This document shows positions 1 to 22,117 of a stretch of 22,117 nucleotides of DNA, piece by piece. The notes below the pieces were generated by a model that saw nothing but the letters and a program-made list of their open reading frames with translations, had not been told where the DNA came from and ran no database searches. Source of the stretch: a virus; the IMG/VR virus record IMGVR_UViG_3300032053_000594, positions 1 through 22,117 of that record, one strand, 5' to 3'. The position numbers were made by a program, and so were the translations under genes. Numbering within the stretch: the stretch's first letter is position 1; every line of letters begins with the position of its first letter.

Positions 1-1176
1 TACATCACTGCAGACACAAACATCGTTCGAGTCATCCCGGGTATTAACCTGACGATCTCTACGACAGTGGGTAGTGATCCAGGTAACACGGCGACTATCG
101 CTACGTACAACAAGAGTGGTAATGAGCCCAATATAGGTGACATGTACTATGTCACGTTCGATAAGGCTAAGACAGACTACACGACTCGGTTCCTCACGAG
201 CATGCGTGATGTGGTCAAGTACTTTGGTCCGATCGATATCAACAACAAGCTCACTATCGCCGCCAACCTGGCGTTCATCAACGGAGCCAGGGCAGTGGCC
301 ATGAAGCAGATCCAGAGAGTGTCTGGTGGTACGGATGCGAGTGTACAGGATTACATTGATGGTATCGATGCGTTCAACGAGCCTATGCCGAACGGTCTTC
401 GTCCTTCAATGATACAGCCGCTCTCGACAGACCCTCAGGTACTGAGTTACCTGAAGACTTCGAATGCGATTCAGTCGAGTATCCGTTACAGGAACGAGCG
501 TACCAGTGCAGTAGGCTTCCCAGTGGGTACCACGTCTGATGCGGTGATCCAGCAGTGCAAAAATCTGTCTTCTGAGAAGATTACTGCTGTGTACCCTGAC
601 GGTGCTGTTATAGGCATCGTGGATGCCTACGGTAATGAGGTTGAGTACATCGTAGATGGTTCTTTGATTGCAGCCGCGGTAGCGGGTCGTGATATATCGC
701 CGGTGAATGACATTGCCACTCCTCTTACGAACGCTACAGTTTCTGGTTTCAAGCGTTTGTACCGGAGATTGGACAATGTTACGGCTTCGTTGGTGGCGAA
801 TTCTGGTTGTACGGTTCTTGAGGAGCAGACTCCAGTCATCAGGATTCTTATGTATCTGACCACGGATATGTCCACGTCGCTTACTCGTGACCCTCGTATT
901 GTTGAGGTGAAGCATTCGATCCAGCAGGGGATCCGGAGTGCTCTCCAGCAGTACATTGGTGTGAAGAATCTGCCGAAGATGCAGACACAGATCAGAGATA
1001 CCGTAGGTTCATACTTCAAACAGTTGAAGCAGAATGAGATTATTGTGGACTTTACGGGTATCCGTGTGTCTCAGAATACGAGTGATCCGAGCACGGTGGA
1101 TGTGGAAGCATACTATAGCCCAGTGTTCCCTTTGAACTGGATTATGGTTACCCTTAACCTGAGACAGAGTCTGTAA
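1..1176 (+). CDS. Contractile tail sheath protein (C-terminal part, 5' end outside window)
   Basis: The frame is open from the first base, so the gene begins upstream; 391 residues are visible. Sheath subunits polymerise around the tail tube and contract to drive it through the host envelope. The identification rests on the last ~130 residues, which look like the conserved sheath C-terminal domain: an amphipathic helix region (GIRSALQQYIGV, then TVGSYFKQLKQNEIIVDF) followed by a strand pattern ending in PLNWIMVTLNLRQSL, where the typical terminal strand of sheath proteins lies. Upstream are soluble, beta-rich sequences consistent with the surface domains. Downstream order (tube, chaperone-position genes, tape measure) agrees. 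ATA is rare (4 of about 36 Ile codons), as expected of an abundant virion protein. A GTG at 67 could be mistaken for a start, but the frame continues upstream of it. I am confident of the family but not of the full length. Confidence 0.87.
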   Translation, partial: YITADTNIVRVIPGINLTISTTVGSDPGNTATIATYNKSGNEPNIGDMYYVTFDKAKTDYTTRFLTSMRDVVKYFGPIDINNKLTIAANLAFINGARAVAMKQIQRVSGGTDASVQDYIDGIDAFNEPMPNGLRPSMIQPLSTDPQVLSYLKTSNAIQSSIRYRNERTSAVGFPVGTTSDAVIQQCKNLSSEKITAVYPDGAVIGIVDAYGNEVEYIVDGSLIAAAVAGRDISPVNDIATPLTNATVSGFKRLYRRLDNVTASLVANSGCTVLEEQTPVIRILMYLTTDMSTSLTRDPRIVEVKHSIQQGIRSALQQYIGVKNLPKMQTQIRDTVGSYFKQLKQNEIIVDFTGIRVSQNTSDPSTVDVEAYYSPVFPLNWIMVTLNLRQSL

Positions 1177-3167: not shown

Positions 3168-3728
3168 ATGGGTCTGACTGATGTTTTTCAGGCTATCCAG
3201 AAAAAGTTCAGTTTCAGCAAGGTCGTGGAAATTTCGGGTATCAAGTTCGAGTTAAGCATACTCTCTTTTGACCAGGAGTTAAAGTCAGAGTCTTTCCCAC
3301 AAGGAGATGCAGATCCTCTGGCGTACTACAACGAGACCCGTAGGTATACGCTATCTCATGCTATCCGGAGTATAGATGGAGAGGTAGTTCCTGAGGTGGT
3401 TGAGATTAAAAACGGTAGTAAGATAGAAAAAATTCAGGGATCTCTCTACGTTAAAGGGGTCCTATCCAAGCTACCTGTTAAGATAGTTGAGCAGCTGTTT
3501 GATGCTTATATAGATATCAAAGAAGAGTATGAAGGTATGCTAGACAAAGAGTTGAAGTATGACTGGTTTAAGACACCGGAGCAGAGAGACGCAGAGAGAA
3601 AAAGCAAGACAGAGGAGAAGAGCGATTCAGAAGAGCCTAAGTCTGAGGATAGTGCGCAAGCTACAGAAGAAGCACCTATTAATTTTGTAGAAATTCCTAA
3701 ACCAGTAGATGACGCAGAGAAAGTTTAA
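3168..3728 (+). CDS. Putative tail assembly chaperone (first of a pair)
   Basis: This 186-residue protein lies just upstream of the tape measure, where myoviruses and siphoviruses encode chaperones that coat the tape measure before tube polymerisation. Residues 1-40 form an N-terminal strand-rich start (FSKVVEISGIKFELSILSF). Residues 45-130 are mostly helical, with a hydrophobic segment LYVKGVLSKLPVKIVEQLFD. From about 145 the protein is a low-complexity Glu/Ser/Lys tail, probably disordered. Its stop overlaps the next start as TAATG, so translation of the two is probably coupled. ATA and AGA/AGG codons become frequent from here on. The family is inferred from position and shape, not from a motif; a baseplate-assembly protein is an alternative. 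Confidence 0.5.
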   Translation: MGLTDVFQAIQKKFSFSKVVEISGIKFELSILSFDQELKSESFPQGDADPLAYYNETRRYTLSHAIRSIDGEVVPEVVEIKNGSKIEKIQGSLYVKGVLSKLPVKIVEQLFDAYIDIKEEYEGMLDKELKYDWFKTPEQRDAERKSKTEEKSDSEEPKSEDSAQATEEAPINFVEIPKPVDDAEKV

Positions 3729-7700: not shown

Positions 7701-8273
7701 AGCATAAAGGATGGTTTATCTAAAGAGAGAACCGACTTAGCTATTGAAGCTGTTCTCGCAGGTGGAGAGGCAGCACAGGGCATGTTTTCCGAGCAGACTA
7801 AGTTGAGTAATAGAAAAAGTGAGCTGGAAACTAGCATATCCGAGGGATCTTTATCAGGGTCCGACCTTTTGAGTGCCAAGGAGGAGTTGTCGGAAACGGA
7901 GGACGCGCTTAAGCGTATAGCATACGCAATCAACAACCCTACGGGGTCGTCTCAGCCTACGTACACCCCGAGTAGTAACATTCCTACAGCAAAAGATGCT
8001 CAAATTACTAAAAGTGGATTGTTGTATGGTACAGAGGGTGACATACTAGCTAATAAGAGTGATGGCGCTAAGATGATAACTGCCGGTATGGGTCAGTTCG
8101 CTAATAGATTGCTGTCTGGAGGTGGTGGTCAGGCGGGTACTGTAGTGTCTTTGAGTCTCAGTATAGGTAACATAAACGGTGTGGTAAATACGGAGAGCTT
8201 CTTGAAAGAGGCAGGACCGGCACTACAGCAGTTGGTTGCTCGTGAGTATAATGATCGACAGAAGAGGTCGTGA
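4788..8273 (+). CDS. Tail tape measure protein
   Basis: This 1161-residue protein, among the longest in the window, has a ribosome site GAGGAG at 4775-4780. Tape measures set tail length and are ejected with the DNA. Residues 1-230 are almost entirely charged helix (predicted coiled coil). Residues ~230-340 are Lys/Arg/Gly-rich. A hydrophobic Gly/Ala-rich segment at about 350-390 (MGMLGKIGWIGLILSAVQMI) is the sole candidate membrane segment. Residues 400-900 are helical with a Gly-rich core (GGLSLQGVGKRIGGGYNEV). A Gly-rich loop near the end precedes a conserved-looking C-terminal strand and helix (VSLSLSIGNINGVVN, then helix to RQKRS), a common tape-measure ending. I see no lysozyme or peptidase motif. 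At the usual ~0.15 nm per residue the tail would be roughly 170 nm (inference). Its TGA overlaps the next start. Confidence 0.88.
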   Translation: MAAVQDPNKELEAKKALLTLQGMILKATDNTTDAILRGNRAHAKSAAILKTIDSINRKTEKTRDKIRKSVEDEQHRTSKVLTDLESKIKVQKDDLILQKTTLRVMQRVGATDKKIAVAKSNIRSSEQKIVKLEEAHNRRNAAFKKFIIFQKDQLKKEIKGNRILSDVQQKYEATDVYFIKNAEEYNDALEHRLKLQEECVDALQKAGKITEAQAKNRKKEIRGESNVAETRAGLRGKATPREDAQERYREYVKENAPRFKVDSRGKPRISGKFISKEEATRQKGEALEFGKKEKFAVGKDLAGSVQSFASAKGFKGRLEAAKGIQDSLGKLKTLNSTLGETAGLAKGAAGMFQGLGSAMGMLGKIGWIGLILSAVQMIASAVNDLNKFVKQYNKSFVKMYGPTVALKDVSGSMKNFSDAVFDMNRNLKYGLKSEDIMGLFEAMSAGGLSLQGVGKRIGGGYNEVILEATKLSKDFGVDLSEMGGMISDQMIDLRASLNDVSDSMEAMAYDASIAGIKSQKFYEAVSAATSALGYYGNYLNSTSAMLRTFADKGAMPFKDAAKEAQDLMSVFSGMDTQKKMGFIQMVGDKKVRSDMNDRAEQIAKEEDVLTERIAAAKESARIAVDADTKEKKLKEASALEEEKAAKRRVRINLKAYAKGDTQALATGLNYMTDKTVDYLISNLKSAGVSDIFDTENLLAKANILATTAQMPAEALTKLLETGRVVLADAKKSAEFIGDKFEKIPEDSREALKGIMSGVMDSVAKGEVIDEDALRSNLTDFVKSGNKLGMSVEDFIGQFKSNAYLLDKAISGLDLNNEQNRKDVSELFMKTGVSMKSGAQDQANRLDEIVKNTTSFEDFLGIGKENMKYMAAMAGGGKLQDMANSAAMVTAQKVGGILGLLQKWMTGKKDSYVQDDDFKAKGGSFDQIADATIKTVLLQKKLFDLETKYEKNPSPVMKSQMEQIKGQISSLNSIKDGLSKERTDLAIEAVLAGGEAAQGMFSEQTKLSNRKSELETSISEGSLSGSDLLSAKEELSETEDALKRIAYAINNPTGSSQPTYTPSSNIPTAKDAQITKSGLLYGTEGDILANKSDGAKMITAGMGQFANRLLSGGGGQAGTVVSLSLSIGNINGVVNTESFLKEAGPALQQLVAREYNDRQKRS

Positions 8274-9415
8274 TGGCTACGATAGGTAACGTAAGTGCTG
8301 AAGAGACGGCTACAGCTCAAGCTGCTAGTTACTTTCAGCCGACACCACTCAGTGATGCTCAACTAACAGGCCGAGTTGAGCCTGCTCCTGCTAGTACTAC
8401 TTTTGTAGCTTTGTCTGTTATCCCAGCGTCCCCTGTCTACATACCTTATCAGGCATCCACGTCTACAGTGTCCGCTGTAGCGGCTACGCCTGCTCCTGTG
8501 CCGACTCCTGTAGCTCCCATAGCTTCGACCCCTGCGGCTCCTGCCTCTCAAATGACTGTGGTCGATATGCAGGATCGTCCTTCCTCTATATCCCCTGGGG
8601 TAAAAGTACCAAGAGGTGATCAGGATGTGATTGATAAAGTGTTGGATAATGCGGCGGACATGGGTAGGTTTTTGGAACTGAGACCACCAATACGTAGGCT
8701 GCCGGAAGAGAATCCTTTTTACATAGAGATGCTGGATGCTAATATGCAGCCATGTGGTATACAGCTACCGGACGGTACTGTCATACAGGCCCTGAAGATG
8801 GCACCGAATCCAGATAATCTAACAGTAAGCTCTGCTAAGATAATAAACAAATACAATACTATTACCCGGTGGGTAGAAGAGCACTGGGGAGATGAAATGG
8901 ATTCTGTGAGCTTCTCTGGTAGCACTTTTTCTTTTATGTCCTATGGGCCCGATTACAGCGGGCTGACCGTGGCTGGTAGAAGAGATACGGCGTCCTATCA
9001 GATGCTAAAGAATCTGGTAAAGTTTTATAGAATGAATGGGTGTATCTATCAGGATAGTAATACCTATCTACCCCAGAACGATGTGGCTTTCTCAAGTGAT
9101 ATTCAGGGCACTGAAGTGGAATCGAGTAGTGTAGCTCCTGGAGTACCTGTACTCCTGAGTGACTATGATGCTCGTGATAAAAACCTGGCGTTTTTGACGA
9201 AGTACCCTGATTTTAAAGGGGACCACCCTAGAGCTGGGCTGGTTCGAGAGAGATTGTACATACGTTTAACTTTTGACTACGTGTCGTTCGTAGGATATTT
9301 CGAAACTTTTGATATTATAGAAGACTCAGCAAATCCTTTTAGAATGACGTATAACGCTTTGTTTAAGTCAGAGCGTACCAAATACATCCTGGGTGATAAG
9401 ACATGGCCAAGATAG
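8273..9415 (+). CDS. Baseplate protein, first of two paralogues, with Pro/Ala-rich N-terminal linker
   Basis: The ATG at 8273 overlaps the tape-measure stop (TGATG) and has AGAGG 5 bases upstream, so I prefer it to the GTG at 8270; this gives 380 residues. Residues 1-110 are Ala/Pro/Thr/Ser-rich and low complexity (APVPTPVAPIASTPAAPASQ), probably a flexible tether. Residues ~175-370 form a domain closely resembling the N-terminal domain of the next protein: APNPDNLTVSSAKI, a WGDEM segment, an RRDTASYQMLKNLVKFYRMN helix, and a final strand set with FVGYFETFDIIEDSANPFRM. This pattern (NP, Trp-Gly, then G-x-F, ED-x-A-x-NP[FY]) recalls XkdP-type proteins that sit between the tape measure and the hub. 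A role at the top of the baseplate around the hub is inferred. The last 13 bases overlap the next gene. Confidence 0.58.
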   Translation: MATIGNVSAEETATAQAASYFQPTPLSDAQLTGRVEPAPASTTFVALSVIPASPVYIPYQASTSTVSAVAATPAPVPTPVAPIASTPAAPASQMTVVDMQDRPSSISPGVKVPRGDQDVIDKVLDNAADMGRFLELRPPIRRLPEENPFYIEMLDANMQPCGIQLPDGTVIQALKMAPNPDNLTVSSAKIINKYNTITRWVEEHWGDEMDSVSFSGSTFSFMSYGPDYSGLTVAGRRDTASYQMLKNLVKFYRMNGCIYQDSNTYLPQNDVAFSSDIQGTEVESSSVAPGVPVLLSDYDARDKNLAFLTKYPDFKGDHPRAGLVRERLYIRLTFDYVSFVGYFETFDIIEDSANPFRMTYNALFKSERTKYILGDKTWPR

Positions 9416-10839
9416 ACAGCGGTAGCACTGTTGACACTCTGTCTGTTTTGATGGGCAGAGAGGGTGGAGATCTTCACTTTAGAAATAAAGCGGGATTGAC
9501 TGCCTTCTCTAATTGGGTGTCCGCGGCCAATGTGCCTAAGGACTACAAGCCCTTTAGTATATCTATATACGATACAGTGCTGCATGAAGATGTGGTATCC
9601 CTGGTGATGATGATAAACCCCAGGGATCTTAACATAAGTCAGAATCAAGTGGTCAACAGCGCCAACACTCGTTTTGGATGGATAAACACTTTATGGGGTA
9701 ATCAGCAGGCCACTATTTCTGCTTCTGGGCTGTCTGCTGGTTTCTATTTTGTATTCGGGGATCAGAGCGGAGGGATATCTAACTTCTACAGGAGAAACAG
9801 CGTAGCTTTTTTGAATTTGCTGTCTGTGGTGGCCTTGTTCAAGAACAACGCTAACTACTACATGGATGGTAAGCAAAACCCTACGTATTTCAATGACGGT
9901 ACCAGTAGAGTCATTAATGTCATGGATATCATACGTATATCCTATGACGGGTCTGAGTACCTGGGTAATTTCTTGTCGTTTACGCTGACTGATGCTGCTG
10001 CGAATCCGTATAGAATGGAGTACAATTTCGAGTTCTCTGTGTCTATGTTTGGTAGTGACCCTAACACTATTGATGGTCACATAAAACGTGGTGGTAACGA
10101 GAAGAGCGATAAGATAATCATAGGTAGGCAGGGTAAAAATACCGATTTTAGTAAATCGGTATTGATGGATGTGGACGAGTTGAATACGTACTTTATATTA
10201 GAGCCTATACCTGACGTGGTAGCGCACTCGTATAGTGAAAAAGAAGAACAGAACGAGCAATCTTTCTACGGAAAAAGAACTGCGCCCGGTTACTGGGATA
10301 CTTTAGAAGGTAGAGAGAGCCTGGCTAAGGTGCCTGATAACTCTATAAGAGTTACACGAGGGTGGAAAGATGGAGAGTCTCACGATGGTAAAGTGGATTA
10401 TCGAACAGCTAGTGGGATGGTGCGATCTTTTACTGAGGGTACGATAGTGAGTGTCGGAGGGCCGTCTCCAGGAGGTCCTAATTTTGTGGTGGTAGAGAGT
10501 AAGGATCAAAGTGGTCAGACTATCTATACCCGTTACTATCATTTGGATCCAGATAGTATGGGTGATTTGAGTAGGGGTAAAACAGTACCTGTAGGTGCTG
10601 TGCTGGGGAAAGAGGGTACAGACGGTGGAAAGTATCCGCCACATGTAGACCTGGCAGTTAGTACGTCATTAAACGGTAAAAACATTGATTTTAACAACAT
10701 GATAGATGCTTCGCCAATGATGAACGAGGGTTTTAGAAAATTAAATGAGCTTGCGAAAGCTGAGCTTGTTACCACGGAGTATTCCGACTATCTGAATGTC
10801 GATTACAAACATGGTAAAAAGACTAACGCGTCTGAATAA
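9403..10839 (+). CDS. Baseplate protein with degenerate M23 (LytM-like) peptidase domain
   Basis: This 478-residue protein overlaps the upstream gene by 13 bases. Residues ~68-212 are the paralogous baseplate domain (MMINPRDLNISQN, WINTLWGNQQATISASG, YLGNFLSFTLTDAAANPYRM). A linker follows. Residues ~310-430 look like an M23 endopeptidase fold: strand pairs around GTIVSVGG and VVVESKDQSG, a clear YYHL (His380), PVGAVLGKEG, and a final PPHVDLAVS. In active M23 enzymes zinc is held by H-x(3)-D and by the second His of H-x-H. Here the first motif reads HDGKVD (His327, Asp332: one residue too many) and the last reads HVD (His414, Asp416), so two zinc-site features are altered. The protein may be a tail-tip murein-binding or structural domain rather than an active enzyme; Asp416 as a substitute ligand is possible. 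The baseplate role is inferred from position and the shared domain. Confidence 0.65.
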   Translation: MAKIDSGSTVDTLSVLMGREGGDLHFRNKAGLTAFSNWVSAANVPKDYKPFSISIYDTVLHEDVVSLVMMINPRDLNISQNQVVNSANTRFGWINTLWGNQQATISASGLSAGFYFVFGDQSGGISNFYRRNSVAFLNLLSVVALFKNNANYYMDGKQNPTYFNDGTSRVINVMDIIRISYDGSEYLGNFLSFTLTDAAANPYRMEYNFEFSVSMFGSDPNTIDGHIKRGGNEKSDKIIIGRQGKNTDFSKSVLMDVDELNTYFILEPIPDVVAHSYSEKEEQNEQSFYGKRTAPGYWDTLEGRESLAKVPDNSIRVTRGWKDGESHDGKVDYRTASGMVRSFTEGTIVSVGGPSPGGPNFVVVESKDQSGQTIYTRYYHLDPDSMGDLSRGKTVPVGAVLGKEGTDGGKYPPHVDLAVSTSLNGKNIDFNNMIDASPMMNEGFRKLNELAKAELVTTEYSDYLNVDYKHGKKTNASE

Positions 10840-10854
10840 AAAGGCAGTCTATAA

Positions 10855-13248
10855 ATGGCAGAGACACTTTCAGGAATATTCTCTGTAAGAGAATTTAACT
10901 ATAGGCGTAATGTGCTGAAACTGGCACCTGACGCTTTTATTACTATCAATGATGCCATAAGCACCAAAGTGGTGTCTCCTATGGAGACCTCCGGGTCTAA
11001 GATCACTGATGTACGTGGAGGTATAACAAGTATAAATGTGTCCTGTGCTATTATCCCTGCCGGAGCGTCTCGTGCTACCATAGAGGTCGTGGCTCCACAA
11101 TATAAAGGTTTGCACACCGACTACTACATAACACACCCTAATGGTACGCGTACTCCGATCTTTACTCCTATGATGGAGATAAAGATATACATGAAAGGAC
11201 GGTACGTAGAGGATGGAAACCAGTGGGCCCCTATGTACTACCCTGTGTTTTGGGGCATGATAATAGGGGTACAGGAGAACTACTCGTCAGGAGCTAGCAC
11301 ATTCTCAATCACCTGTGAGGATCTTTTGTGCTGGTGGAGGCACCAAAAGATTACTATGCAGTCCAGTGTGATTACGACTTTCTTTGGTGGCGCTACCATG
11401 AACAGGTTCCCTAGCGCATTTCAGAATATGTCGCCATGGGAGATAGTGCTGTCGATGTTCACGGACACCTTTTTTATGCAGGATGATAAGTATGAAGGTG
11501 GTATAAAAAGGCGTTTGGATATGGTATACCCTCAGTTTTCTAATATCTACCAACCGCCCAAGGACGTAGAGCTATTGAAAGAGACCTGGGGACCGTTTTC
11601 GCAGAAAGTTATAGACTATTGGAACACTCGCTTTGGTTTTAATACCAGGACACAAGGTACTCCAGAAGAGATCGCCGCGAGCATGAGAAACATACCTTTA
11701 GAGTTGTATGGTATGAGAGGTCCTATATCCTGGGATGTAGCAACAGATTTGGTAAGGGCTTTTCTTAGCAAGACCGGTATTGATATCAGCTCTCAGACGA
11801 GTAGACAGGCAAAATTAGATCTTGATTTTGGTATGCTGGCTAGGGTACAGCCATACGGTCTGTTCGACAACTATGGAGACGGCGCACAGCCTACTATTCT
11901 GTCCAAGCTGGAGATCGTTAATGCTATATGCGAAAAAACCAACATGGAGTTCTTTGTAGATACTAACGGCTCTTTTGTATTCAAACCACCCCTGTATAAT
12001 TTAGACGTAGCCACAGGCGGCGTAGCCTATTACACAGTAGGCCCAGAGGACATCATAAATTTAAACGCAAATTTTGACTCTAACTCTATTGTGAACTACC
12101 TGGTGGTAACGGGTCCTTTGTGGCAGTCGTTGGGTATGGAAGCAGTAGGATTGCATGCAGATTTTGAATCCATAAAGAAATACGGTATCAGATCTGAGCA
12201 GATAAACGTATCCTTCGGGATGAATGCTAGCCAGCTTAAAATGATAGCAGTAGCTGAGATGACCCGTAGAAATGGACAGGCGTATACAGGCAGTGTGAGT
12301 ATCCCTTTGAGGCCTGAGATTAGAATGGGGTACCCTGTTTATATGCCGCACATAGACACTTTCTACTATGTGACAGGGATATCACATTCGTATGCGTACG
12401 GTTCATCCGCTACCACTGATCTATCTCTCCAGTATAAAAGAGAGAGGATTTTTGAAGACGGGACGTCAGGGCTGTATGGATTTGGTACTGAAAAAGGAGA
12501 CGTGCTGGATGCATGCGTGATGAGAGAGCGGAAAGATGATATAGCTCTATTCGTGGCGGACAACAAAGCCCTGACTGAGGAAAACATAAAGTCTACAGAT
12601 GCTGCCAAGACTAATCCTAAATTAGACAAAAGCAGCCCGGATTATCAGAAGAATTTAGAAGCGTATATCAAAGAGCAGAAAGAGCAAAATTTAAAGAGGA
12701 AGAATCGTCAGTATGCTGGTCCTGATATCTCTGGGTATTGGTCTATATCAAAGGCAGTTATTAAGCCGTACGATGAGTCAGTAAAAAATCCTGATAGTGC
12801 TGATGCGATAGTTTCCAATGAGCTGTTGATGATAACAGATAGTACAGTGCCGTACACGGACAAGAATGGGTATAGGCATATAGGTGCTTTTCCTTTTGGG
12901 GCTAATTTAGTGCTGATGAAAAATGGCGGTACATCGTACGATTCTACGAATAAAACACAGGTAGACTCGGCTACTACCAAGACTGTCCTGAACATAAAAG
13001 GTACCACAGAGGTGGTACAAACAGGTCAGAGCAACGAGGAGAGTAATAGTGTGCCAGGGAGTACCAGCACAGAAGGGGTCAATACCGACGGATCTCGTGC
13101 ACCTCAAGACAGTGATAGAGAAATAGTACCAGTACCAGATAACAGTGCGACAGTTGACCTAAATCTTGCTCTAAATCCTATTATGCCATCTGTTACCATG
13201 GCCCGCGGTAATGTGAACGGTACTACTATACAGCGGATAACGCAGTAG
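10855..13248 (+). CDS. Baseplate hub protein (gp27/gpD-like) with long C-terminal extension
   Basis: This 797-residue protein lies immediately upstream of the central spike, where the hub that joins tube and spike is normally encoded. The N-terminal ~180 residues are strand-rich (MEIKIYMKGRYVEDG, VFWGMIIGVQENYSSGASTF), matching the first hub barrel domain. Around 350-380 is the hub-type signature EIVNAICEKTNMEFFVDTNG followed by SFVFKPPLYN: the module before the DG-type turn and strand in late-control gpD proteins. Residues ~440-540 form a second barrel-like region ending in DLSLQYKRER. From about 560 there is an extension: charged helix (DKSSPDYQKNLEAYIKEQKE), a small domain with YTDKNGYRHIGAFPFG, then a Ser/Thr/Asn-rich tail to residue 797. 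Phage T4 gp27 is about 390 residues, so this is roughly double. The start has only a moderate site (AAGGCAG). Confidence 0.72.
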   Translation: MAETLSGIFSVREFNYRRNVLKLAPDAFITINDAISTKVVSPMETSGSKITDVRGGITSINVSCAIIPAGASRATIEVVAPQYKGLHTDYYITHPNGTRTPIFTPMMEIKIYMKGRYVEDGNQWAPMYYPVFWGMIIGVQENYSSGASTFSITCEDLLCWWRHQKITMQSSVITTFFGGATMNRFPSAFQNMSPWEIVLSMFTDTFFMQDDKYEGGIKRRLDMVYPQFSNIYQPPKDVELLKETWGPFSQKVIDYWNTRFGFNTRTQGTPEEIAASMRNIPLELYGMRGPISWDVATDLVRAFLSKTGIDISSQTSRQAKLDLDFGMLARVQPYGLFDNYGDGAQPTILSKLEIVNAICEKTNMEFFVDTNGSFVFKPPLYNLDVATGGVAYYTVGPEDIINLNANFDSNSIVNYLVVTGPLWQSLGMEAVGLHADFESIKKYGIRSEQINVSFGMNASQLKMIAVAEMTRRNGQAYTGSVSIPLRPEIRMGYPVYMPHIDTFYYVTGISHSYAYGSSATTDLSLQYKRERIFEDGTSGLYGFGTEKGDVLDACVMRERKDDIALFVADNKALTEENIKSTDAAKTNPKLDKSSPDYQKNLEAYIKEQKEQNLKRKNRQYAGPDISGYWSISKAVIKPYDESVKNPDSADAIVSNELLMITDSTVPYTDKNGYRHIGAFPFGANLVLMKNGGTSYDSTNKTQVDSATTKTVLNIKGTTEVVQTGQSNEESNSVPGSTSTEGVNTDGSRAPQDSDREIVPVPDNSATVDLNLALNPIMPSVTMARGNVNGTTIQRITQ

Positions 13249-13258
13249 GAGCTATACA

Positions 13259-15274
13259 ATGGCGTGGGATAAAGGTGGAAAACGTGTGCTGCTGCCAGGT
13301 AGACAGATAGCTGCCGGGGAGCGTCCTACACAGAGTCAGCGGCCTCTCAGTACTACGTTTGTCGTGGGTGAGGTGAAGAACGTAGACGTTGAAAAATTGT
13401 GCATGACCGTGGATTTTAGAGGAGCTTTTGGATCCAGGCAGAACATCACTATAGCGCAGCCGTTTGCAGGCACTTCGAGTTTTATACTCGGTATGCCTGA
13501 GATAGGGTCTTTGATACTGTTTGGTCAGCAGGATGGTGAGTTTTACCCTCTCACGTATCTCCCGAACTATACGCATGGCCTGGAGAATAGAAACGTAAAA
13601 CTACTCCCGGACAACATAAAATCTATAGAGCAAAATGAGTTTATGTTTAGGGTGAGAAAGTTGCTCAAAGGTGAGCTGGCTTTAGGGTCCGCTGGTGGCG
13701 TGGAGTTCTTCCTGGGAGAGAAAGCTCGCCTGGATGATAGTCATGGTAACATTTTTCAACTGCGCAGTGACAACAACTCTATCATCTCTACAGCGTGTAA
13801 CAACAGCATATTCGGTAGCGGTATATGGCTTAATTCCGGTATCATAAAGAGGAACTCCATAAACACGGCTTTCCTCGAAGACAACCCGAACATTTTTAAG
13901 GAGTCCCTACCCCGCGGGATGTTTGAGTATGTGCTGCGCCCAGGAGGTCCTAACCCGAACATAGACCCGTACTACACGGAGTACCTACTGGAAGTAGACG
14001 ATAAAGGCTACTCTCAGCCTCCTGAGAATGACATGAATGGAGACGCGAACAGGACTGGCAGATCTCCTATAGGCATTTTCTCTATGGGTAACATGGTAGG
14101 CAACAACCCAAACCTACTGTCCTATGGAAAGATACTCCGTCCTATCCTGTTCAATGATCTGGACGATAAGATAGGTGAGTTCTTGCTCGAGTCTGTAGCA
14201 GAGAAAGACATAGATACTCTGGGTGTGGCTATATCCTGGTTCAAGCCAGACAGGGCTAACCCGGAGTCCGGTGCGTTTTTTGGGTTCGATAAAGAGGGTC
14301 ACTGCTATCAATACATGCCCTCTGCTACAGGAGGCCTGGGTGGTGGGCGATCGATGTCTATCCTCGCCAGGGGCAGCAAGAAGGAAGTGTGGGGTCGTGA
14401 GTCCCGGTATGATACATCGTGGGATATGAAAGCTACGGGCGGAGTGGTATGGGAGATAGGGGCTCACAATGACAGAGAAGGTAATCCATACGCCAGTCGT
14501 AGCATGGACGTCCGTACGAGTAGTACTGTGTTCTACATGTATGGGAACAGCGGTACTACCCCAGCTATCATGGACTACAAAGATCCTACGAAGGTGGTGG
14601 AGGATCCTAATAGCTATTTGAAGGTGGAGAAAGTAGGCGGTAAGGAACGACATGAGGTTTATGGTACCAGGGAGACTATAATCAGCGGCAATGACTACTT
14701 TACTATAAACGGGTCGCGCAAAGAGGTTGTAAAGCAGGATAGCACCACACACTTCATGTCTACCAGGAATGTGTCTGTAGGGGATGCGTTCACGGAAAAA
14801 GTGACTAAAGAAAAGCAGGAGACGTTTGGTAACCGTAAAACCACGGTAACTCAGGGTAGCTCTGAGCTGACAGTGACTGCTCTACAGGGGGATATAAAGG
14901 AAGAGGTCAAGAAGCTCGGTGGAAAATCACTCAAGATTAACATGGGTAGTGTACAAGAAACCGTAAAGCTCGGTAGCAGGATTATAAAGATAAAGACAGG
15001 TAGCGTAGAGTCTAAGATATCTGGGGTAGGTAATTTCAAGTCGAGTACTAAATCGGGTCAGATAGCGCTACAGACCAAAACGGGAGCCATGGGGTTCAAG
15101 GCCTCTTTGAATATAGACATGAAAACAAAAAAAGCGGCTAATGTAGTGGTCGCTGGGGGTGTGCTGAAGCTACAGGGTAAAAAAGGATCGCCTGGAAAAG
15201 TAATAACATCTAAAACGCATAAAGACTATACTACCGGGGCGTACCATGCAGGTACCTCGACAGCATTAGCGTGA
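13259..15274 (+). CDS. Central tail spike (gp5/gpV-like), OB-like head plus beta-helical needle
   Basis: This 671-residue protein has AGGAG at 13247-13251, overlapping the upstream stop. Spike trimers cap the hub and pierce the outer membrane. Residues ~30-105 form an OB-fold-like domain (TTFVVGEVKNVDVEKLCMTV, then GMPEIGSLILFGQQDGEFYP), the typical start of gp5 and gpV. Residues 105-450 form a large middle region, Gly/Asn-rich, with no T4-lysozyme or transglycosylase motif that I can see. From about 455 to 645 short alternating Val/Ile/Thr/Lys strands with repeated Gly turns (ETFGNRKTTVTQGSSELTV, LGSRIIKIKTGSVESKI) predict an intertwined trimeric beta-helix, like the octapeptide stalk of gp5. 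The final ~25 residues (THKDYTTGAYHAGTSTALA) would be the tip; no PAAR domain is fused. The next gene may provide the cap. Confidence 0.82.
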   Translation: MAWDKGGKRVLLPGRQIAAGERPTQSQRPLSTTFVVGEVKNVDVEKLCMTVDFRGAFGSRQNITIAQPFAGTSSFILGMPEIGSLILFGQQDGEFYPLTYLPNYTHGLENRNVKLLPDNIKSIEQNEFMFRVRKLLKGELALGSAGGVEFFLGEKARLDDSHGNIFQLRSDNNSIISTACNNSIFGSGIWLNSGIIKRNSINTAFLEDNPNIFKESLPRGMFEYVLRPGGPNPNIDPYYTEYLLEVDDKGYSQPPENDMNGDANRTGRSPIGIFSMGNMVGNNPNLLSYGKILRPILFNDLDDKIGEFLLESVAEKDIDTLGVAISWFKPDRANPESGAFFGFDKEGHCYQYMPSATGGLGGGRSMSILARGSKKEVWGRESRYDTSWDMKATGGVVWEIGAHNDREGNPYASRSMDVRTSSTVFYMYGNSGTTPAIMDYKDPTKVVEDPNSYLKVEKVGGKERHEVYGTRETIISGNDYFTINGSRKEVVKQDSTTHFMSTRNVSVGDAFTEKVTKEKQETFGNRKTTVTQGSSELTVTALQGDIKEEVKKLGGKSLKINMGSVQETVKLGSRIIKIKTGSVESKISGVGNFKSSTKSGQIALQTKTGAMGFKASLNIDMKTKKAANVVVAGGVLKLQGKKGSPGKVITSKTHKDYTTGAYHAGTSTALA

Positions 15275-15284
15275 GAGTGTAAGT

Positions 15285-15902
15285 ATGCCACTATCCTCTG
15301 GGATGATCTCGAACAACATACTGGCTCAGTTCAACGCCAAGCGTTTGACTGGTAAAAACAATAGAGATATAGCCAACGGTATTGGTATGGCTGTGTATAT
15401 GTTTTTGACTACTCCTAATCTGGTATCTTGCTCTATGTCTGGTACGGTAGGTCCTGTGGGTAATCTGATGAGTATAGTGACCCTGGGAGTGATACCTAAT
15501 GCTATGAGTTCTTTGATGAATGCTCAGGCTAAGAAGAATAAGCTGACTGGTAGAAACATGCCGGACATATGTAGTGCTGCCGCTACGGGTATCGCAATAT
15601 CTATGGCTAGCCTTATGTTATCAGGTACTACAGCAGGCCTGGCTGTAGGAGTTGGTACGGGTTCTTTCTCTAAAGCGTCAGATAAGATCATGGCCAACAT
15701 ACTATATGGACAAGAGATGTCAAAGTTCATGAGAGGTAGAAACATTAGAGATATAGTGAATAGTTTAGCGAGCGGATTCGTGAGTCATATAAAGAACTCA
15801 GCGAAGATAACATTGACAGCTACTGGGGCCATCGCTCCGGTAGCTCCTGCGGGACCTGTGGCTACATCCAGCATACCGGCAGTTTTCTCGAAAATTAGCT
15901 AA
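15285..15902 (+). CDS. Small triple-repeat protein after the spike, possible spike-tip cap
   Basis: I do not recognise a family. The 205-residue protein starts 10 bases after the spike stop with only a weak ribosome site. It consists almost wholly of three tandem repeats of 62-66 residues. Each has a basic L-T-G-[KR]-N-x-x-D-I helix start (AKRLTGKNNRDIANG near 18-32, NKLTGRNMPDICSAA near 85-99, SKFMRGRNIRDIVNS near 147-161) followed by a Gly/Ala/Ser/Thr/Val-rich half (SGTVGPVGNL, SGTTAGLAVGVGTG, TATGAIAPVAPAGP). The hydrophobic helical stretches could be taken for membrane segments, but the repeating Gly/Thr pattern and tail-gene context suggest a compact virion protein. Three repeats could match the threefold symmetry of the spike, as the pseudo-threefold PAAR tip does; this is inference. 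A small baseplate adaptor or an internal tail protein is possible. Confidence 0.6.
   Translation: MPLSSGMISNNILAQFNAKRLTGKNNRDIANGIGMAVYMFLTTPNLVSCSMSGTVGPVGNLMSIVTLGVIPNAMSSLMNAQAKKNKLTGRNMPDICSAAATGIAISMASLMLSGTTAGLAVGVGTGSFSKASDKIMANILYGQEMSKFMRGRNIRDIVNSLASGFVSHIKNSAKITLTATGAIAPVAPAGPVATSSIPAVFSKIS
15333..15902 (+). repeat. Three tandem protein-level repeats (periods 66 and 62 codons)
   Basis: The anchor position (L of LTG, or M in the third copy) falls at residues 21, 87 and 149. The conserved skeleton is basic-x-x-L-T-G-[KR]-N-x-x-D-I. The copies begin near 15333, 15531 and 15717. I saw no matching near-identical DNA, so the duplication is old. Confidence 0.75.
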
Positions 15903-15914
15903 GGAAGTGTGTAA

Positions 15915-18900
15915 ATGGGTTCTGAAGTTTTTAAGTTAAAATCGTTGCCCATGGACGACACTGTCGTGCGTGGATCCCGTATCAATGCGAAGAATGCTAA
16001 AGAGACCCGTACGGTGCTGGTCAACCCCCCTTATGATGACCCGGTGTTGAAGACTGGCGAGATCGGCATCAATGCCGAGTACATCGTACAGGCCTCTCTC
16101 ATAGGGAATGACCTCAAAGGGTACGGGACTTTCGTAAACAATAGTGATGTAGTCCAGGGATACATAGGACCGCAGGACATAAAGTACGGTGATATAGTAC
16201 GCCTCGACACGGACATCACGTTCTATACCGTGACTGGTATGCAGGGTACTGATCTGTACCTACAGGAGAAGTTCGTAAAGAAAGCTCCTACAGACCCGGA
16301 TCAGCAGACTGGTGTCACTACCGTAAGAAAAGTGAAACTGGACAGTGCTACCTATGAGACTGTAAAAAGCCTAGAACCTGCTGGTATTATTTTCTACGAC
16401 AATACCAATACCGTATGGGGTGCGACTGGGATGCAGTTACCAGCACCCACGGTAGCTACTAGATCTCTCATACCTTTTGATACCGGGATGAGCATCCAGT
16501 TTCAAACTGGAGTGAAGCGTTCTAAACCTGACATACTCACTGTAGGCAGTGTCTACAAAACGGTCGTAGATAATAACACTACACCGGTCAGTGATGTGAG
16601 CCTGAGTCCTCTACCCTACCCTCACGAGAGTTTGAAGGTCTACATAGCAAAGCCTGGGGAAGTGCTGGAGCAAAAGGTAGAGCTCGAAGACTACGCCGTA
16701 AACTACACTCAGAGTCCTGAGTACAGAACGCCCCGCCCTCCTTATGAGGAACGTGAAGGTGCTTATATAAAGTTCCTGGATAAACTGACAGACGAAGTCC
16801 AGGTACCTGCGATAGACGCTACTTTTGAGGGTAACGTATCCCTGGTCAAAAAGTCCGTACAAAACAATGCCAACCTACTGCGGCCCATAGGTAATATCAT
16901 ACCATCAGACTCTTTTGAGATGAAAGCAGGCGGTGAAAAGCGTAAGGTAAATGTAGAGTATGTACCGGATTATGACGCTGGTATCGTACGGTTCGTGAAG
17001 CATGAAAACTCAGAGCCTCTGATCGATTCTATCACATACGTGAAAAAACTCATATGGGATGGTATGAGTGTGATAAAGGGTGTAGGGTATACAGGTGTCC
17101 AGAACATGGACAGCCTGGTCATACCTCCTATATCAGGTATCGCAGGTACTATTGGCATGGTGTACTATGAGGATACTGATCAGAACAACCTGATCAGGGA
17201 TATCGACTACGTCATAGACCCGGAATCTGGAGCTTTCAGACTCGAGTCCCCGCTAAAAGAAACAGAGTCAGTACTGGTGTCCTACTACGTGGAGGGTGAG
17301 GACGTAGAGGCTGAGCCTGTGGCTCTCAATGATATGAGAGTCAACAAGTATCCTGTAATCACAGGGTCTGTGACCATAACTGAAAAGTACAGGGTCACTG
17401 AGGATAGCAAAGAAGTTACCAAGACTAAAGTCCTGATAGAGAATCAGGATTTTTCGTTCTCTTATATCACAGGCCGTATCAGCTCTATAGATCTAATAGA
17501 AGGTCAGGAGATACTGTCACTGGAAGCCAGCTATACTCCAATGGCTCAGGTGAACGTCGTTCTCCAGACTGTCCCCGGTGATAGTCTGAAATACAGGATG
17601 ACAATAATCAATGATGTCATAAAGGTAGTGACTCCAGGTGCTTTGACGTTCCAGCTGAATAACCCTATGGTGTCTGTGCCTGCTAAAGTCACATTCAAAG
17701 AGGATGTCACAGATTCCAACTATACGTTTTCAGGGACTGTGCTCCCAGACAGCCTGTTGTGGGTCAAGAACGAGTCTGGTACGGTATCCTATGACGTAAG
17801 AGGATATGCCTACTATGACGTGAAAGAAGTACCCCGCCAGTTGGTGCTCGACCAGAGCTTGAGTGATAGTCGTCCCGATTTGGATGAGCTAATCGTAGCT
17901 ACCTATAGTTTTGAGTCAGAGCGCCTACCGTACACACCGGCTATCATAATCAACTCGATATTCAACACGGGCGATGATTATTTCCTGATAGAGGGATTCG
18001 ACAGGACAGATGTACTCAAATCTGGTATGATACTCCGTATCGATAACTTTGACCCGGAGCATACGCTCTACTATAAGATACAGTCAGTCACCTACGAGCA
18101 TGGTACTACTACTGTGAAACTCTGGGGTATTTTCCCGGAGACTATCATCAATCCTACGTTCTATCTGTTCGATGACGGTATCGATTGGCTGGGGCTACCG
18201 TCTGGTACGGAGATAGATACAGCTACGCCCGTGATGTCAGAGACTATCGTACTGACAGGGAACCCCCTCCATATCAAGAATGACATAAAGAAAAACAGTC
18301 TACTGCTCATAAACGACGAGCAGGTGTACACGGTGATGGCAGTGGATAGGGTGGGTCTACAGTCTACTCTGACTATCTTCCCTGCTCTACAGGAGATGAT
18401 CTCAGGTAGTATACAGTACTCGAGTCTGCCTGTGCACAATACCGGAGACGAGAATCTATCTGCCAAATACTTTATCATGACGGACCCTACGCAGCCTGCG
18501 TTCACTCTAAGTTATCAGGCTCCGGCAGGGTTTGAGGGTAGTGCGAGTATCCTGGTAGATACTGAAAAAGTGCTCATCATAGAGGCTATCCGCGGTATAA
18601 AGAACCCGGAATCGTACATCTATCCTATCGCTGACTATGCTACTCTGTATGATCTCGCAAAAGCTATCCAGGGGACTGCATCTACATTCAACAAGAATTT
18701 ACCCTGGGTGAAAGTACCCGACTACAATCCATTTACGATATTCCCGGCAGGGTCCATAGAAGAAGAGTACTATCTGTCTCCAGGTCCGTGGAGTACAGAC
18801 TTGATCATACCGTTTGAGGATGACACGCCACTCACGCTCCCGTACACGTTTAAAATTATACCGGAGCTATTCAAGTGGTCTCTCCTGCAGGCCTACGTGA

Positions 18901-21900
18901 CAGAGAACTCGTTTCTGATTAAGAATACCGATCGTAGGCCATTTTTTGTGAGAGGTAATCTGCTGGCGTTTCGGAATACGTTAGATGGCAAACTCTATTT
19001 CTTTGAAGTGTCTGGTGCGGAGCTGGTGGCAGATAAAGTCACTCCAGGTACACAGAACACTAAAGTGAATCTGACGGATACATTCAGGCAGAATCTGCTC
19101 AACCCTACTGCCTACAAGTACGACTCAGTGTCCTGGGAGATCATAGACGATACTCTAACGAGCGTGGACCTCACTCGATCTGAGCTGACGTTTAGAGGGC
19201 TACCTCAGGGTAATCTGAGGAAGAGTACTATGCTCAAGATCGCTGATGCCTATATCTACCAGGTATCAGAGTTGACTGTAGGATCCAATAGCTACACAGT
19301 GAAGGTCATACCTGACCTGAATAATAGTGTGAAACTGGAGACCTACAACGGATATGTGAGACAGAGCTCGATACCCATTTACCTGGATGACATAGGTCCT
19401 CAGCCGTACATGTCGATACAGTATACATCTCCTGTGGGCCATGTGGGTACGGCAGAAATTCGAGTGCAGTCTGACAGGATACTCATACGGGAGACTATCG
19501 ATAATTTCGACATAAAGTCCTTTAGGTATGAGTACAAAAACTACAATAGCATCCCAGAGCTCGCGGCGGCTATACAGGACGCACCGTCTTATGTGGCTGA
19601 TTTCAAGCCATTCACGGTCACGATCCCTGACAGGTATCTACCAGAGCTCCAGGTAGACAATTTCGATAACTACAAGATAAAGACTACAGACGGTGAGTTC
19701 GTGTCCCTATCACGTGACCTACAGATAGCTGTGTCCTCATTCTCGGTACAGTACACCACCCCCACAGGACACGTAGGTAGAGCCGAGGTATCGGTACTTC
19801 CTACCGAGATCATCCTGAAAGAGACCATAGAGGCCTATCAGGCAGGTAGAGATGTCTCTAAAGAGACTCGAATAGCCTACTTGAGTACTCAGAGTCTGTC
19901 CGATCTCGCTACTCGAGCTATACCCGCGGTATCGTCTTTGGTGTCGGCTACCCTACACCCGTTCTCCTGTACCCTTCTAAACACTGAACTATTCGACGCG
20001 GGGCTGTGGAGCAGTACTCATGTGGTATCTATGTCAGAGGACGCTGTAGAGACTCCTACAAAGGTCATGGGTACAGTAGATGGACACCATTGGTATGCTC
20101 TGGGTCCTTTGAATGAGCGTCGCCTGGTACCAGAGACAGATTATGAGATAGAGACGGGGTCGATTGTACTCACGGAGCCTATAGTGCCTCTGGACCGTTT
20201 CCGGATGAGTTATATGGGTCTGTGGAGTCTGGAGGAGTACGAGGGGTCTGCTATCACGTGTTCGTGCCGGTATTTCACCGATTTGCCTATGGGGTCCAGG
20301 GTAGATGTCTACATGGATTACCTGAACATAGACCAGTTCTATCTGCAGAAGCTCACAGAGAGAAAGTTTTCTGAGATCGTGGTGAAGCCTCAGATCGGTG
20401 AGATTTTGGACCAGCTGGGCAGCGGTGGGCAGAGTAGTGATAACGGGGCAGACAGTAATGCCACCCCGAACTGGCAGGGTGGATCTGCAGACCTCTATTA
20501 TTTGCTGAGGGATGAGCAGATCAAGATACAGTTATATCTCAGGTTTTATCAGTGGTACAAGCGTCGTCTGCGTGATTTCTCTGCTGAGTTGCAGTTGACG
20601 GTAGGGTTCAAATTTGGGCACAGTAATGCTCTAGGGCTGGATGACGACAATAACTATACGTTGGATGATGAGTTCGTGGAGACAGAGGACTACACTCTGA
20701 CGTCTGAAAATGATCTGGATCAGATCAAGAATGGTTTCTCTAAATTTTTCCCTGTGGGATATGAGGATACCGCTCCAAAGTACTACGATCGGTTTGGTCC
20801 TGAGTACACGTCCTACAATGAGGTGTACTGTTGTAATGTCATTCGCACTAACAGAACTACTAATGCAATAGAGACGGTAGGAATAGTAAAGTCGGAGCAC
20901 CCGTACTGGTTAAGGGATCTGGATTTCTCTGTGTGGGATAACGTGTCTCAGACGGGAGTGGGGTCCTATGTGGTAGACGTACCTTTAGAGGATAGGGTGT
21001 TCAGGAGTGGTACGTATACATTTTTGAAGAGGATAGAGGTAGGAGATAAGATACGCGTCCACAAGTTCAAGGACTACTACGAGATAGCTGAGATAGTGGC
21101 CCCGGCTGGTAAAGACTACGAGTACCTGGTACTCACAAAACCTTTCGTTAAGAAGAAAAAGAAAAGTGGCAGGAACAAGCGCCGTAAAGGTATCAAGACT
21201 TTTGATATACATCTGGTGAGAGATGACAGGCCATTCCATGATCATACTAAGATGGTGTCCGTACTCAAAAAGTACATGTATGAGGGTCAGGCAGATGACG
21301 TGATAACTTTTGAAGAGTTGTTGGACAGTCTCCCGCCCGATGGTTTCAAAATATCGGTACAGAGGCAGGAGAAAGAGTCTTTCCCCATGGCGGATGATTA
21401 TGGGAGCCTGGGGGCATCTGCTATAGGAGAAGAGATAGACGGTCATATCACGAACACCCGTCGTATCAAGAAGCCTATGCTGGCGGCTTTGTTGAAGCTG
21501 CTGTTTCCTTTTATACCTGATCTGCCACCTCCACCGGCTAATTTCAAGATACAGGTCATGAAAGATTCTGAGTCTGGGTGGGAGGATCTACCTAGTGGTC
21601 AGGTAGATATGAGTAAGCTCACGTTTAAAGATAAGCGTAATGTAGATGACGTGATGGATTCACTACGTTTTGATTTTACCCAGGTAGGTGTATTACCTCC
21701 TGTACCTCTACCAGGGTTTCCTACTACTCCAAAACCTATCTATGATAATTTGGAGAAAGATGATCTCGGGTTCCATAGATATTTTTACTTGAGCTTTGAT
21801 AAGGTATATGACGCTGACTCTCCTGGTGGATACTATGACGGTATCATAATCAGGGCAAAAAACAGAGAGTGGTGGTTCAGGGTAGTAAACGGTGGTGATC

Positions 21901-22117
21901 AGGATATCATCGAGGACTACGGTTTCGACCCGAGCAAAGAGTACCGTAATTTTTATGACCCTGAGTGTATGTACAAGCGTGTCCTCATAGAAAAGCAGGC
22001 GTGGGAGACCGAGGAGCTCATATTAAAGGATCTCTACGATCACAGTGATAAAATTGCACGGGCATTCGATCAGGGTAACCTAAACAAGACAAACAGTAAG
22101 TATCAGGGGTACCTAGC
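15915..22117 (+). CDS. Giant modular baseplate/tail structural protein, 3' end outside window
   Basis: The ATG at 15915 has AAGGAAG at 15901-15907, overlapping the upstream stop. Reading every codon from there I found no stop, giving at least 2,067 residues, and the gene continues beyond the window. It is beta-rich and soluble, with no signal peptide, no membrane segment and no catalytic motif I can recognise. Short modules recur. Type A (six copies, e.g. residues 88-120 and 1707-1744) has a GD-[IV]-x-R-[IL] turn and a Y-x-[IV] strand. Type C (e.g. 431-458, 512-540, 1409-1433) has a D-[YF]-x-x-x-x-x-G-x-[IV] hairpin as in many phage structural proteins. Longer type B occurs three times (863-945, 1166-1248, 1276-1355). 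Near 1500-1525 is a Gly/Ser/Asn linker; at about 1745-1760 is a Lys/Arg-rich stretch. Its position after the spike suggests a baseplate wedge, spoke or fibre-anchoring part. ATA is common throughout. Confidence 0.68.
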   Translation, partial: MGSEVFKLKSLPMDDTVVRGSRINAKNAKETRTVLVNPPYDDPVLKTGEIGINAEYIVQASLIGNDLKGYGTFVNNSDVVQGYIGPQDIKYGDIVRLDTDITFYTVTGMQGTDLYLQEKFVKKAPTDPDQQTGVTTVRKVKLDSATYETVKSLEPAGIIFYDNTNTVWGATGMQLPAPTVATRSLIPFDTGMSIQFQTGVKRSKPDILTVGSVYKTVVDNNTTPVSDVSLSPLPYPHESLKVYIAKPGEVLEQKVELEDYAVNYTQSPEYRTPRPPYEEREGAYIKFLDKLTDEVQVPAIDATFEGNVSLVKKSVQNNANLLRPIGNIIPSDSFEMKAGGEKRKVNVEYVPDYDAGIVRFVKHENSEPLIDSITYVKKLIWDGMSVIKGVGYTGVQNMDSLVIPPISGIAGTIGMVYYEDTDQNNLIRDIDYVIDPESGAFRLESPLKETESVLVSYYVEGEDVEAEPVALNDMRVNKYPVITGSVTITEKYRVTEDSKEVTKTKVLIENQDFSFSYITGRISSIDLIEGQEILSLEASYTPMAQVNVVLQTVPGDSLKYRMTIINDVIKVVTPGALTFQLNNPMVSVPAKVTFKEDVTDSNYTFSGTVLPDSLLWVKNESGTVSYDVRGYAYYDVKEVPRQLVLDQSLSDSRPDLDELIVATYSFESERLPYTPAIIINSIFNTGDDYFLIEGFDRTDVLKSGMILRIDNFDPEHTLYYKIQSVTYEHGTTTVKLWGIFPETIINPTFYLFDDGIDWLGLPSGTEIDTATPVMSETIVLTGNPLHIKNDIKKNSLLLINDEQVYTVMAVDRVGLQSTLTIFPALQEMISGSIQYSSLPVHNTGDENLSAKYFIMTDPTQPAFTLSYQAPAGFEGSASILVDTEKVLIIEAIRGIKNPESYIYPIADYATLYDLAKAIQGTASTFNKNLPWVKVPDYNPFTIFPAGSIEEEYYLSPGPWSTDLIIPFEDDTPLTLPYTFKIIPELFKWSLLQAYVTENSFLIKNTDRRPFFVRGNLLAFRNTLDGKLYFFEVSGAELVADKVTPGTQNTKVNLTDTFRQNLLNPTAYKYDSVSWEIIDDTLTSVDLTRSELTFRGLPQGNLRKSTMLKIADAYIYQVSELTVGSNSYTVKVIPDLNNSVKLETYNGYVRQSSIPIYLDDIGPQPYMSIQYTSPVGHVGTAEIRVQSDRILIRETIDNFDIKSFRYEYKNYNSIPELAAAIQDAPSYVADFKPFTVTIPDRYLPELQVDNFDNYKIKTTDGEFVSLSRDLQIAVSSFSVQYTTPTGHVGRAEVSVLPTEIILKETIEAYQAGRDVSKETRIAYLSTQSLSDLATRAIPAVSSLVSATLHPFSCTLLNTELFDAGLWSSTHVVSMSEDAVETPTKVMGTVDGHHWYALGPLNERRLVPETDYEIETGSIVLTEPIVPLDRFRMSYMGLWSLEEYEGSAITCSCRYFTDLPMGSRVDVYMDYLNIDQFYLQKLTERKFSEIVVKPQIGEILDQLGSGGQSSDNGADSNATPNWQGGSADLYYLLRDEQIKIQLYLRFYQWYKRRLRDFSAELQLTVGFKFGHSNALGLDDDNNYTLDDEFVETEDYTLTSENDLDQIKNGFSKFFPVGYEDTAPKYYDRFGPEYTSYNEVYCCNVIRTNRTTNAIETVGIVKSEHPYWLRDLDFSVWDNVSQTGVGSYVVDVPLEDRVFRSGTYTFLKRIEVGDKIRVHKFKDYYEIAEIVAPAGKDYEYLVLTKPFVKKKKKSGRNKRRKGIKTFDIHLVRDDRPFHDHTKMVSVLKKYMYEGQADDVITFEELLDSLPPDGFKISVQRQEKESFPMADDYGSLGASAIGEEIDGHITNTRRIKKPMLAALLKLLFPFIPDLPPPPANFKIQVMKDSESGWEDLPSGQVDMSKLTFKDKRNVDDVMDSLRFDFTQVGVLPPVPLPGFPTTPKPIYDNLEKDDLGFHRYFYLSFDKVYDADSPGGYYDGIIIRAKNREWWFRVVNGGDQDIIEDYGFDPSKEYRNFYDPECMYKRVLIEKQAWETEELILKDLYDHSDKIARAFDQGNLNKTNSKYQGYL
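16176..21146 (+). repeat. Six dispersed copies of short beta module A in the giant gene
   Basis: Copies lie at 16176-16274, 18015-18134, 18285-18389, 18948-19085, 19215-19319 and 21033-21146. The pattern is a short turn ([GKN][DMNS]-x-[IL]-[RKL]-[IVF]), a strand with an aromatic (Y-x-[IVF]), a 5-15 residue loop, then a T-[VL]-x-[VIL]-type strand. The first and last copies are the most alike (KYGDIVRLDTDITFYTVTG and VGDKIRVHKFKDYYEIAEI) and are followed by similar ends, EKFVKK and KPFVKK. In the middle, A and B copies alternate as A-A-B-A-A-B-B. Confidence 0.5.
18501..19980 (+). repeat. Three copies of protein module B inside the giant gene
   Basis: Copies start at 18501 (residue 863), 19410 (1166) and 19740 (1276), each about 80 residues. 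The shared skeleton is S-[ILV]-x-Y-x-x-P-x-G-[HF]-x-G-x-A-x-[IV] (SIQYTSPVGHVGTAEI and SVQYTTPTGHVGRAEV in copies 2 and 3), then [IV]-[IL]-[IL]-x-E-[TA]-I, then a helix like IPELAAAIQDAPS, LYDLAKAIQGTAS or LSDLATRAIPAVS. Copies 2 and 3 are the closest pair, suggesting the latest duplication. Confidence 0.72.

Follow-up and report, generated by a model that had tools for sequence, protein, structure and literature searches.

Giant tail proteins built from repeated beta modules in large uncultured myophages, with a probable place in the baseplate region

Phage proteins commonly contain Ig-like or similar domains in strings, which may weakly bind surface carbohydrates, and the tail sheath of phage 812 has an additional domain named domain II (PMC9230969). 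The giant protein described here looks like an undescribed family, parts of which resemble domains already known from phage tails. It is encoded at the end of an IMG/VR record of 22,117 bp (IMGVR_UViG_3300032053_000594), a piece of a larger phage genome that was used whole as the window of this analysis. The window starts within a sheath gene and ends within the giant ORF, and the ORFs listed here all have the same orientation:

1..1176, + strand, C-terminal part of the tail sheath (phrog_279, 2.4e-23; PF17482, 4.5e-11)
4788-8273, + strand, long tape-measure-like ORF, so called from place and length only
9403..10839, + strand, tail protein with a C-terminal M23 peptidase (PF01551, 1.2e-6)
10855..13248, + strand, hub-like tail protein (phrog_1887, 2.4e-8; phrog_400, 5.4e-8)
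13259..15274, + strand, spike-like gene (weak matches: phrog_430, E 0.027; PF22178, E 0.0056)
15285..15902, + strand, 205-residue companion adjoining the giant on its 5' side, with a threefold internal repeat whose units have about 65 residues
15915..22115, + strand, giant ORF of 2,067 amino acids, 3'-truncated at the contig end (ATG frame without interruption)

The sheaths of LR745208, Tunturi_5 and Bacillus phage G are related to the sheath of this phage.

The giant ORF has AAGGAAG upstream of its ATG, and the initial annotation was right in reading a single unbroken frame from 15915 to the window end, with 2,067 codons and still open at the contig end. Scans of viral contigs show that about 20 of them carry the giant, with sizes that include 141, 173, 183, 210 and 259 kb. 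The copy on contig L002 matches the window copy without a difference across 1,475 residues. There are 16 distinct complete copies of 3,179-3,779 amino acids and two partial copies, with pairwise identity from 31% up. The window copy therefore represents between slightly more than half and two thirds of a complete protein. Purifying selection spans the entire frame, as is seen from codon positions and from dN/dS, which in two pairs of copies was 0.08-0.35 across all eight equal segments of the gene. An assembly artefact was rejected because of this selection and because whole copies recur across many independent contigs.

The companion upstream of the giant (203-210 amino acids) is kept in nearly all contigs. 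The order downstream is the same in ten contigs, with proteins of about 575, about 480 (in most of them), about 248 and about 1,120 amino acids (the last one partial in L036), followed by a large protein where the contig stretch extends that far. In L037 the 1,128-residue downstream protein is gp6/Baseplate_J (PF04865, 2.9e-17; phrog_6, 2.9e-26), and the 248-residue protein has weak, sub-threshold matches of gp25 type (E 0.023-0.13). The gene order in the contigs read is spike-like gene, 205-residue companion, giant, the proteins of about 575 and 480 residues, gp25-like gene, gp6/Baseplate_J and the large protein. Since separate gp6 and gp25-like genes are found downstream, the giant itself cannot be gp6 and is unlikely to be gp25. 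A gp6 equivalent fused into the giant was rejected on the separate gene in L037, and a fused gp25 equivalent can probably be rejected too. Family scans gave no Baseplate_J/gp6 match (PF04865, phrog_6) in the giant itself.

Pfam, PHROGs and NCBIfam scans with the window part and with full-length L037 gave no match to the giant, and no fibre, lectin, collagen, S74 or pectate-lyase domain was found in it. The sheath core (PF17482, phrog_279) was not found either; both profiles match the ORF at 1-1176 instead. A tblastn search of 50,697 sequenced phage records gave no relative, genome contigs rendered pattern matches of which none was a relative, and profiles of the giant had no match in LR745208, Tunturi_5 or Bacillus phage G. 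Sequence profiles matched the PDB at chance level only. No profile match to one known family over the full length was found, and no description of the family was found in the open-access literature.

The protein was compared with itself by scoring profile tiles from the family alignment on the full profile; reversed tiles served as one control (maximum 28.8) and column-shuffled tiles as another (25.7). The giant has significant internal repeats by this measure. Residues 669-987 align with 973-1277 at tile scores of 72-110 against the null of 28.8, which corresponds to A1-A2-B1 against A3-A4-B2, a duplicated A-A-B block of about 305 residues, to which a third B is added. B3 (1272-1374) scores 85-91 in its alignments to B1 and B2. 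Single-module HMMs connect A1 with A3 (1e-9), A2 with A4 (3e-6), B1 with B2 (1.6e-14) and B2 with B3 (1.3e-12), and single-sequence shuffles recover identical A and B pairs. The order A-A-B-A-A-B-B, proposed earlier from the letters of the window, is borne out by all three approaches. The elements of the giant, with residue numbers of the window copy, are:

16110..16340, + strand, N-terminal beta barrel, candidate A-like, residues about 66-142 (AlphaFold2 pLDDT about 80; weak profile match to 1697-1729, 34.7)
17175..17309, + strand, hairpin C1, residues 421-465 (profile match to C3)
17421..17606, + strand, hairpin region C2, residues 503-564 (marginal profile match to C3)
17928..18200, + strand, module A1, residues 672-762 (repeat of A3)
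18201..18449, + strand, module A2, residues 763-845, model barrel 754-837 (repeat of A4)
18486..18839, + strand, module B1, residues 858-975 (repeat of B2 and B3)
18867..19142, + strand, module A3, residues 985-1076 (repeat of A1)
19143..19391, + strand, module A4, residues 1077-1159 (repeat of A2)
19392..19700, + strand, module B2, residues 1160-1262 (missing along with B3 in L043 and L066)
19707..20048, + strand, module B3, residues 1265-1378 (missing along with B2 in L043 and L066)
20085..20264, + strand, hairpin C3, residues 1391-1450 (profile self-comparison and module HMMs)
20265..20804, + strand, conserved core, partly helical, residues 1451-1630 (identity 0.60-0.69 per 50-residue bin)
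20961..21215, + strand, barrel-like region D, candidate A-like, residues 1683-1767 (weak; model resemblance)

Six A modules had been counted initially, of which four form two pairs by sequence (A1/A3 and A2/A4) and the other two are weak candidates only. Because the similarity between the A1 type and the A2 type is marginal (profile score 32.9), the set is better stated as two pairs and two further candidates (residues about 66-142 and 1683-1767), for which there are a weak profile match (34.7) and barrel-like models. The recurring hairpin C fared less well. Its motif had been misspelt, as DY-x(5)-G-x-[IV] is nowhere matched in the giant; the corrected motif D[YF]-x(4,6)-G-x-[IVF] has three matches, a count that was reached in 60 of 1000 shuffles (6%) with the looser pattern D[YF]-x(4,6)-G-x-[IVFL]. 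The profiles of C1/C3 (39.2) and C2/C3 (31.4, marginal) are slightly above the null of 28.8, and module C as a recurring unit is weakly supported. Beyond the window, profile self-comparison of L037 gives repeats at 2265-2376, 2444-2534, 2568-2679, 3182-3266 and 3379-3463, and an inserted domain is present twice in this copy (2813-2900 and 3272-3359, score 153).

The relatives differ in their number of modules. B2 and B3 are missing together in L043 and L066, with nearly equal boundaries (window residues 1160-1392 and 1154-1390). In a maximum-likelihood tree, built quickly and with SH-aLRT as its only support, this absence needs two separate changes, as L066 is sister to L039-L041, which keep the pair. 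The two modules were thus lost cleanly and independently in two lineages. A block with two repeats (L037 2422-2699) is wholly or nearly missing in eight copies (L042, L044, L045, L057 and L076-L079), an 83-residue block (L037 2038-2120) is missing in every other complete copy, and an 88-residue block (L037 2811-2899) is found among the other complete copies in L036 only. These domain-sized gains and losses, together with those of B2 and B3, show that the protein evolves through duplication and loss of beads. That it grew by duplicating strand units, as had been suggested, is well supported by the sequence comparisons, given the duplicated A-A-B block, the extra B and the domain-precise changes in relatives.

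AlphaFold2 models of residues 1-1160 and 1150-2067, made from an alignment of 17 sequences, have a mean pLDDT of 67 and 65, with large parts below 50. B2 and B3 reach about 90, and the A modules and B1 are mostly at 70-90; the prediction is poor for residues 1-64, most of 141-382 and the core at about 1390-1630 (mostly below 50 at 1451-1630). Foldseek searches with both models gave no PDB match at E<0.001, and the viral matches were long bead strings of low TM-score that are uninformative. The single-module comparisons that follow have to be read with the reservation that a VIA Z of 7-9 is at or just above the usual background only and that a shared fold does not fix a location in the particle: B1 resembles phage 812 sheath 151-254 (VIA Z 7.4-8.0), B2 the same sheath (8.6-9.1) and B3 its residues 131-250 (7.9); A2 resembles T5 pb9 (8.1-8.4 over 75-84 residues), A3 phage Chi tail-tip protein 237-309 (7.3) and A4 lambda tail-tip 490-567 (7.0, with V-ATPase barrels at about 6); the N-terminal barrel at about 66-142 resembles Mystique tail tube 104-178 (7.7, with an F1-ATPase barrel at about 6), and model residues 460-545 (the C2 region) resemble JBD30 baseplate chain f 92-172 (Z 7.4). 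From its position, the aligned range of the phage 812 sheath would be domain II. The resemblance of A2 to pb9 agrees with a sub-threshold hit of PF21430, the profile for the B domain of pb9, to this module in L037 (E 0.043). Region D (model 479-669, window 1628-1818) is weakly similar to barrels of OB/EF-Tu type (VIA Z 4-5). A match of FliD D2-D3 to window residues 1832-2014 (Z 7.0) was set aside as within background.

Conservation of the giant peaks at its two ends (the N-terminal 140 and the C-terminal 150 residues) and at 1400-1680, and the core at 1451-1630 ranks among the best-conserved parts of the family. A free receptor-binding fibre is expected to be most variable at its tip. Set against this expectation, the conserved termini and core favour a strut or arm. 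We regard the giant as probably a structural protein of the baseplate region in large uncultured myophages, an extended strut or arm with the beads as spacers. A baseplate arm, spoke or fibre-anchoring ring had been proposed from the window alone, and as to the baseplate this fits both the conserved slot of the gene, with the spike-like gene on one side and the gp25/gp6-like genes on the other, and the predicted folds that resemble Dit and sheath domains. Small beta domains would follow one another in a long chain, some of them barrels as known from distal tail and tail-tip proteins, others sandwiches resembling domain II of a tail sheath protein, with the conserved, partly helical core interrupting the series. 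N-terminus, core and C-terminus might dock on invariant tail machinery, on the hub/spike side and on the gp25/gp6-like wedge side, and the beads between these anchors would be spacers, the giant bridging baseplate parts or carrying fibres outward. Duplication or deletion of whole modules would change the number of beads and alter the reach while the anchors remain intact. Its presence in the virion, the geometry of the strut, its partners and the spacer role of the beads are what we infer, and it is only the pattern of conservation that points to anchors at both ends. An unrecognised class of baseplate struts, anchored at both ends and with a reach tuned by adding or dropping tail-derived beta domains, is a bolder proposal that we consider possible but rather doubtful.

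The beads might instead present receptor-binding surfaces, so that the giant would be a long tail fibre or adhesin. This is in line with the Ig-like bead strings common in phages and their possible weak carbohydrate binding (PMC9230969), and fibre proteins are among the viral Foldseek matches, every one at a very low TM-score. However, the far C-terminus, the usual site of receptor-binding tips, shows some of the strongest conservation in the giant, and neither collagen, S74 and pectate-lyase domains nor those of any other fibre family were found in it; an adhesin seems unlikely to us. The similarity of the B modules to phage 812 sheath 149-254 (Z 7.4-9.1), for which a stabilising role in the sheath disc has been proposed, could also be expected of a whisker-like decoration of the tail sheath or tail surface in which these modules pack like sheath domain II. 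Such a decoration is distinctly unlikely, with B-module HMMs having no match in the phage's own sheath of 989 amino acids and the gene being located in the spike-wedge stretch, not adjoining the sheath or tube. The large size, and distinct conserved segments with variable ones between, would suit a polyprotein precursor cut by a phage protease into several baseplate proteins, but the gains and losses track bead boundaries, and we find a precursor quite improbable.

The giant adds a conserved family of tail proteins of 3,200-3,800 residues to the uncultured large myophages, one that has no relative among the sequenced phage records. The two independent losses of one bead pair are clean natural examples of the way in which structural proteins of phages gain or lose length. 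An isolate, if found, would allow testing of whether the dimensions of the baseplate depend on the number of beads.

Compared with the additional domain II of the phage 812 tail sheath (8r5g, 9euf, 9eui), the B models superpose on about 89 residues (2.1-2.6 Å, Z 7.4-9.1), but this accessory domain alone would be in common and the giant lacks the sheath core. The predicted barrel of A2 resembles the B domain (PF21430) of the T5 distal tail protein pb9 (Dit), whereas the N-terminal hexameric ring domain was not recognised in the giant models, parts of which are of low confidence, and the giant is not a Dit of about 200 residues. With the gp6/Baseplate_J wedge family (PF04865, phrog_6) it shares a gene cluster in which gp6 is encoded separately. 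Like the multi-domain Ig-like tail and fibre proteins of phages, the giant appears to be a bead string of small beta domains with gain and loss of domains; unlike them, it has no common sequence family, a conserved C-terminus, a slot between the spike-like and wedge genes and more than 3,000 amino acids. As a strut, it would be a phage counterpart of the titin-type spacer proteins.

The N-terminal region of approximately 270 residues is conserved in one tail protein of the window and its relatives on other viral contigs, while the C-terminal peptidoglycan-active domain differs by contig.

9403-10839 (+), tail protein with a C-terminal M23 peptidase domain
L010:3480-4784, L011:3555-4880, L018:8648-9985, L077:3101-4489 and L098:3365-4837, relatives of this protein
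15285-15902 (+), 205-aa protein encoded between the spike-like gene and the giant tail gene

The M23 peptidase domain is shared with the L015 version, an SLT transglycosylase takes the C-terminal position in L010, L011, L077 and L079, and L018 carries a Tlde1/L,D-transpeptidase-like domain. The L098 version perhaps ends in a phage lysozyme domain, to which the match is sub-threshold. Judged by sequence, the window's 478-aa protein and the 381-aa product of the adjacent gene (8270-9415) look like paralogues, and cross-matches between the two proteins from different contigs are as low as 4e-13.

The sheath ORF at the start of the window (1-1176) comprises only the last 391 residues; a longer contig from the same phage has the full ORF of 989 aa (L046:12672-15638).

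The 205-aa protein is almost invariant in length from contig to contig, and a repeat unit of roughly 65 residues occurs three times within it (z 4.2, 7.4 and 4.2). One possibility is that it forms a pseudo-threefold cap for a trimeric spike.

Three contigs end within the giant gene: the window at residue 2067, L002 at 1475 and L003 at 3015. Repeats or strain variation possibly broke the assembly there. The full-length giant protein of contig L037 contains two closely similar copies of a domain (residues 2813-2900 and 3272-3359), one of which is missing in most relatives.
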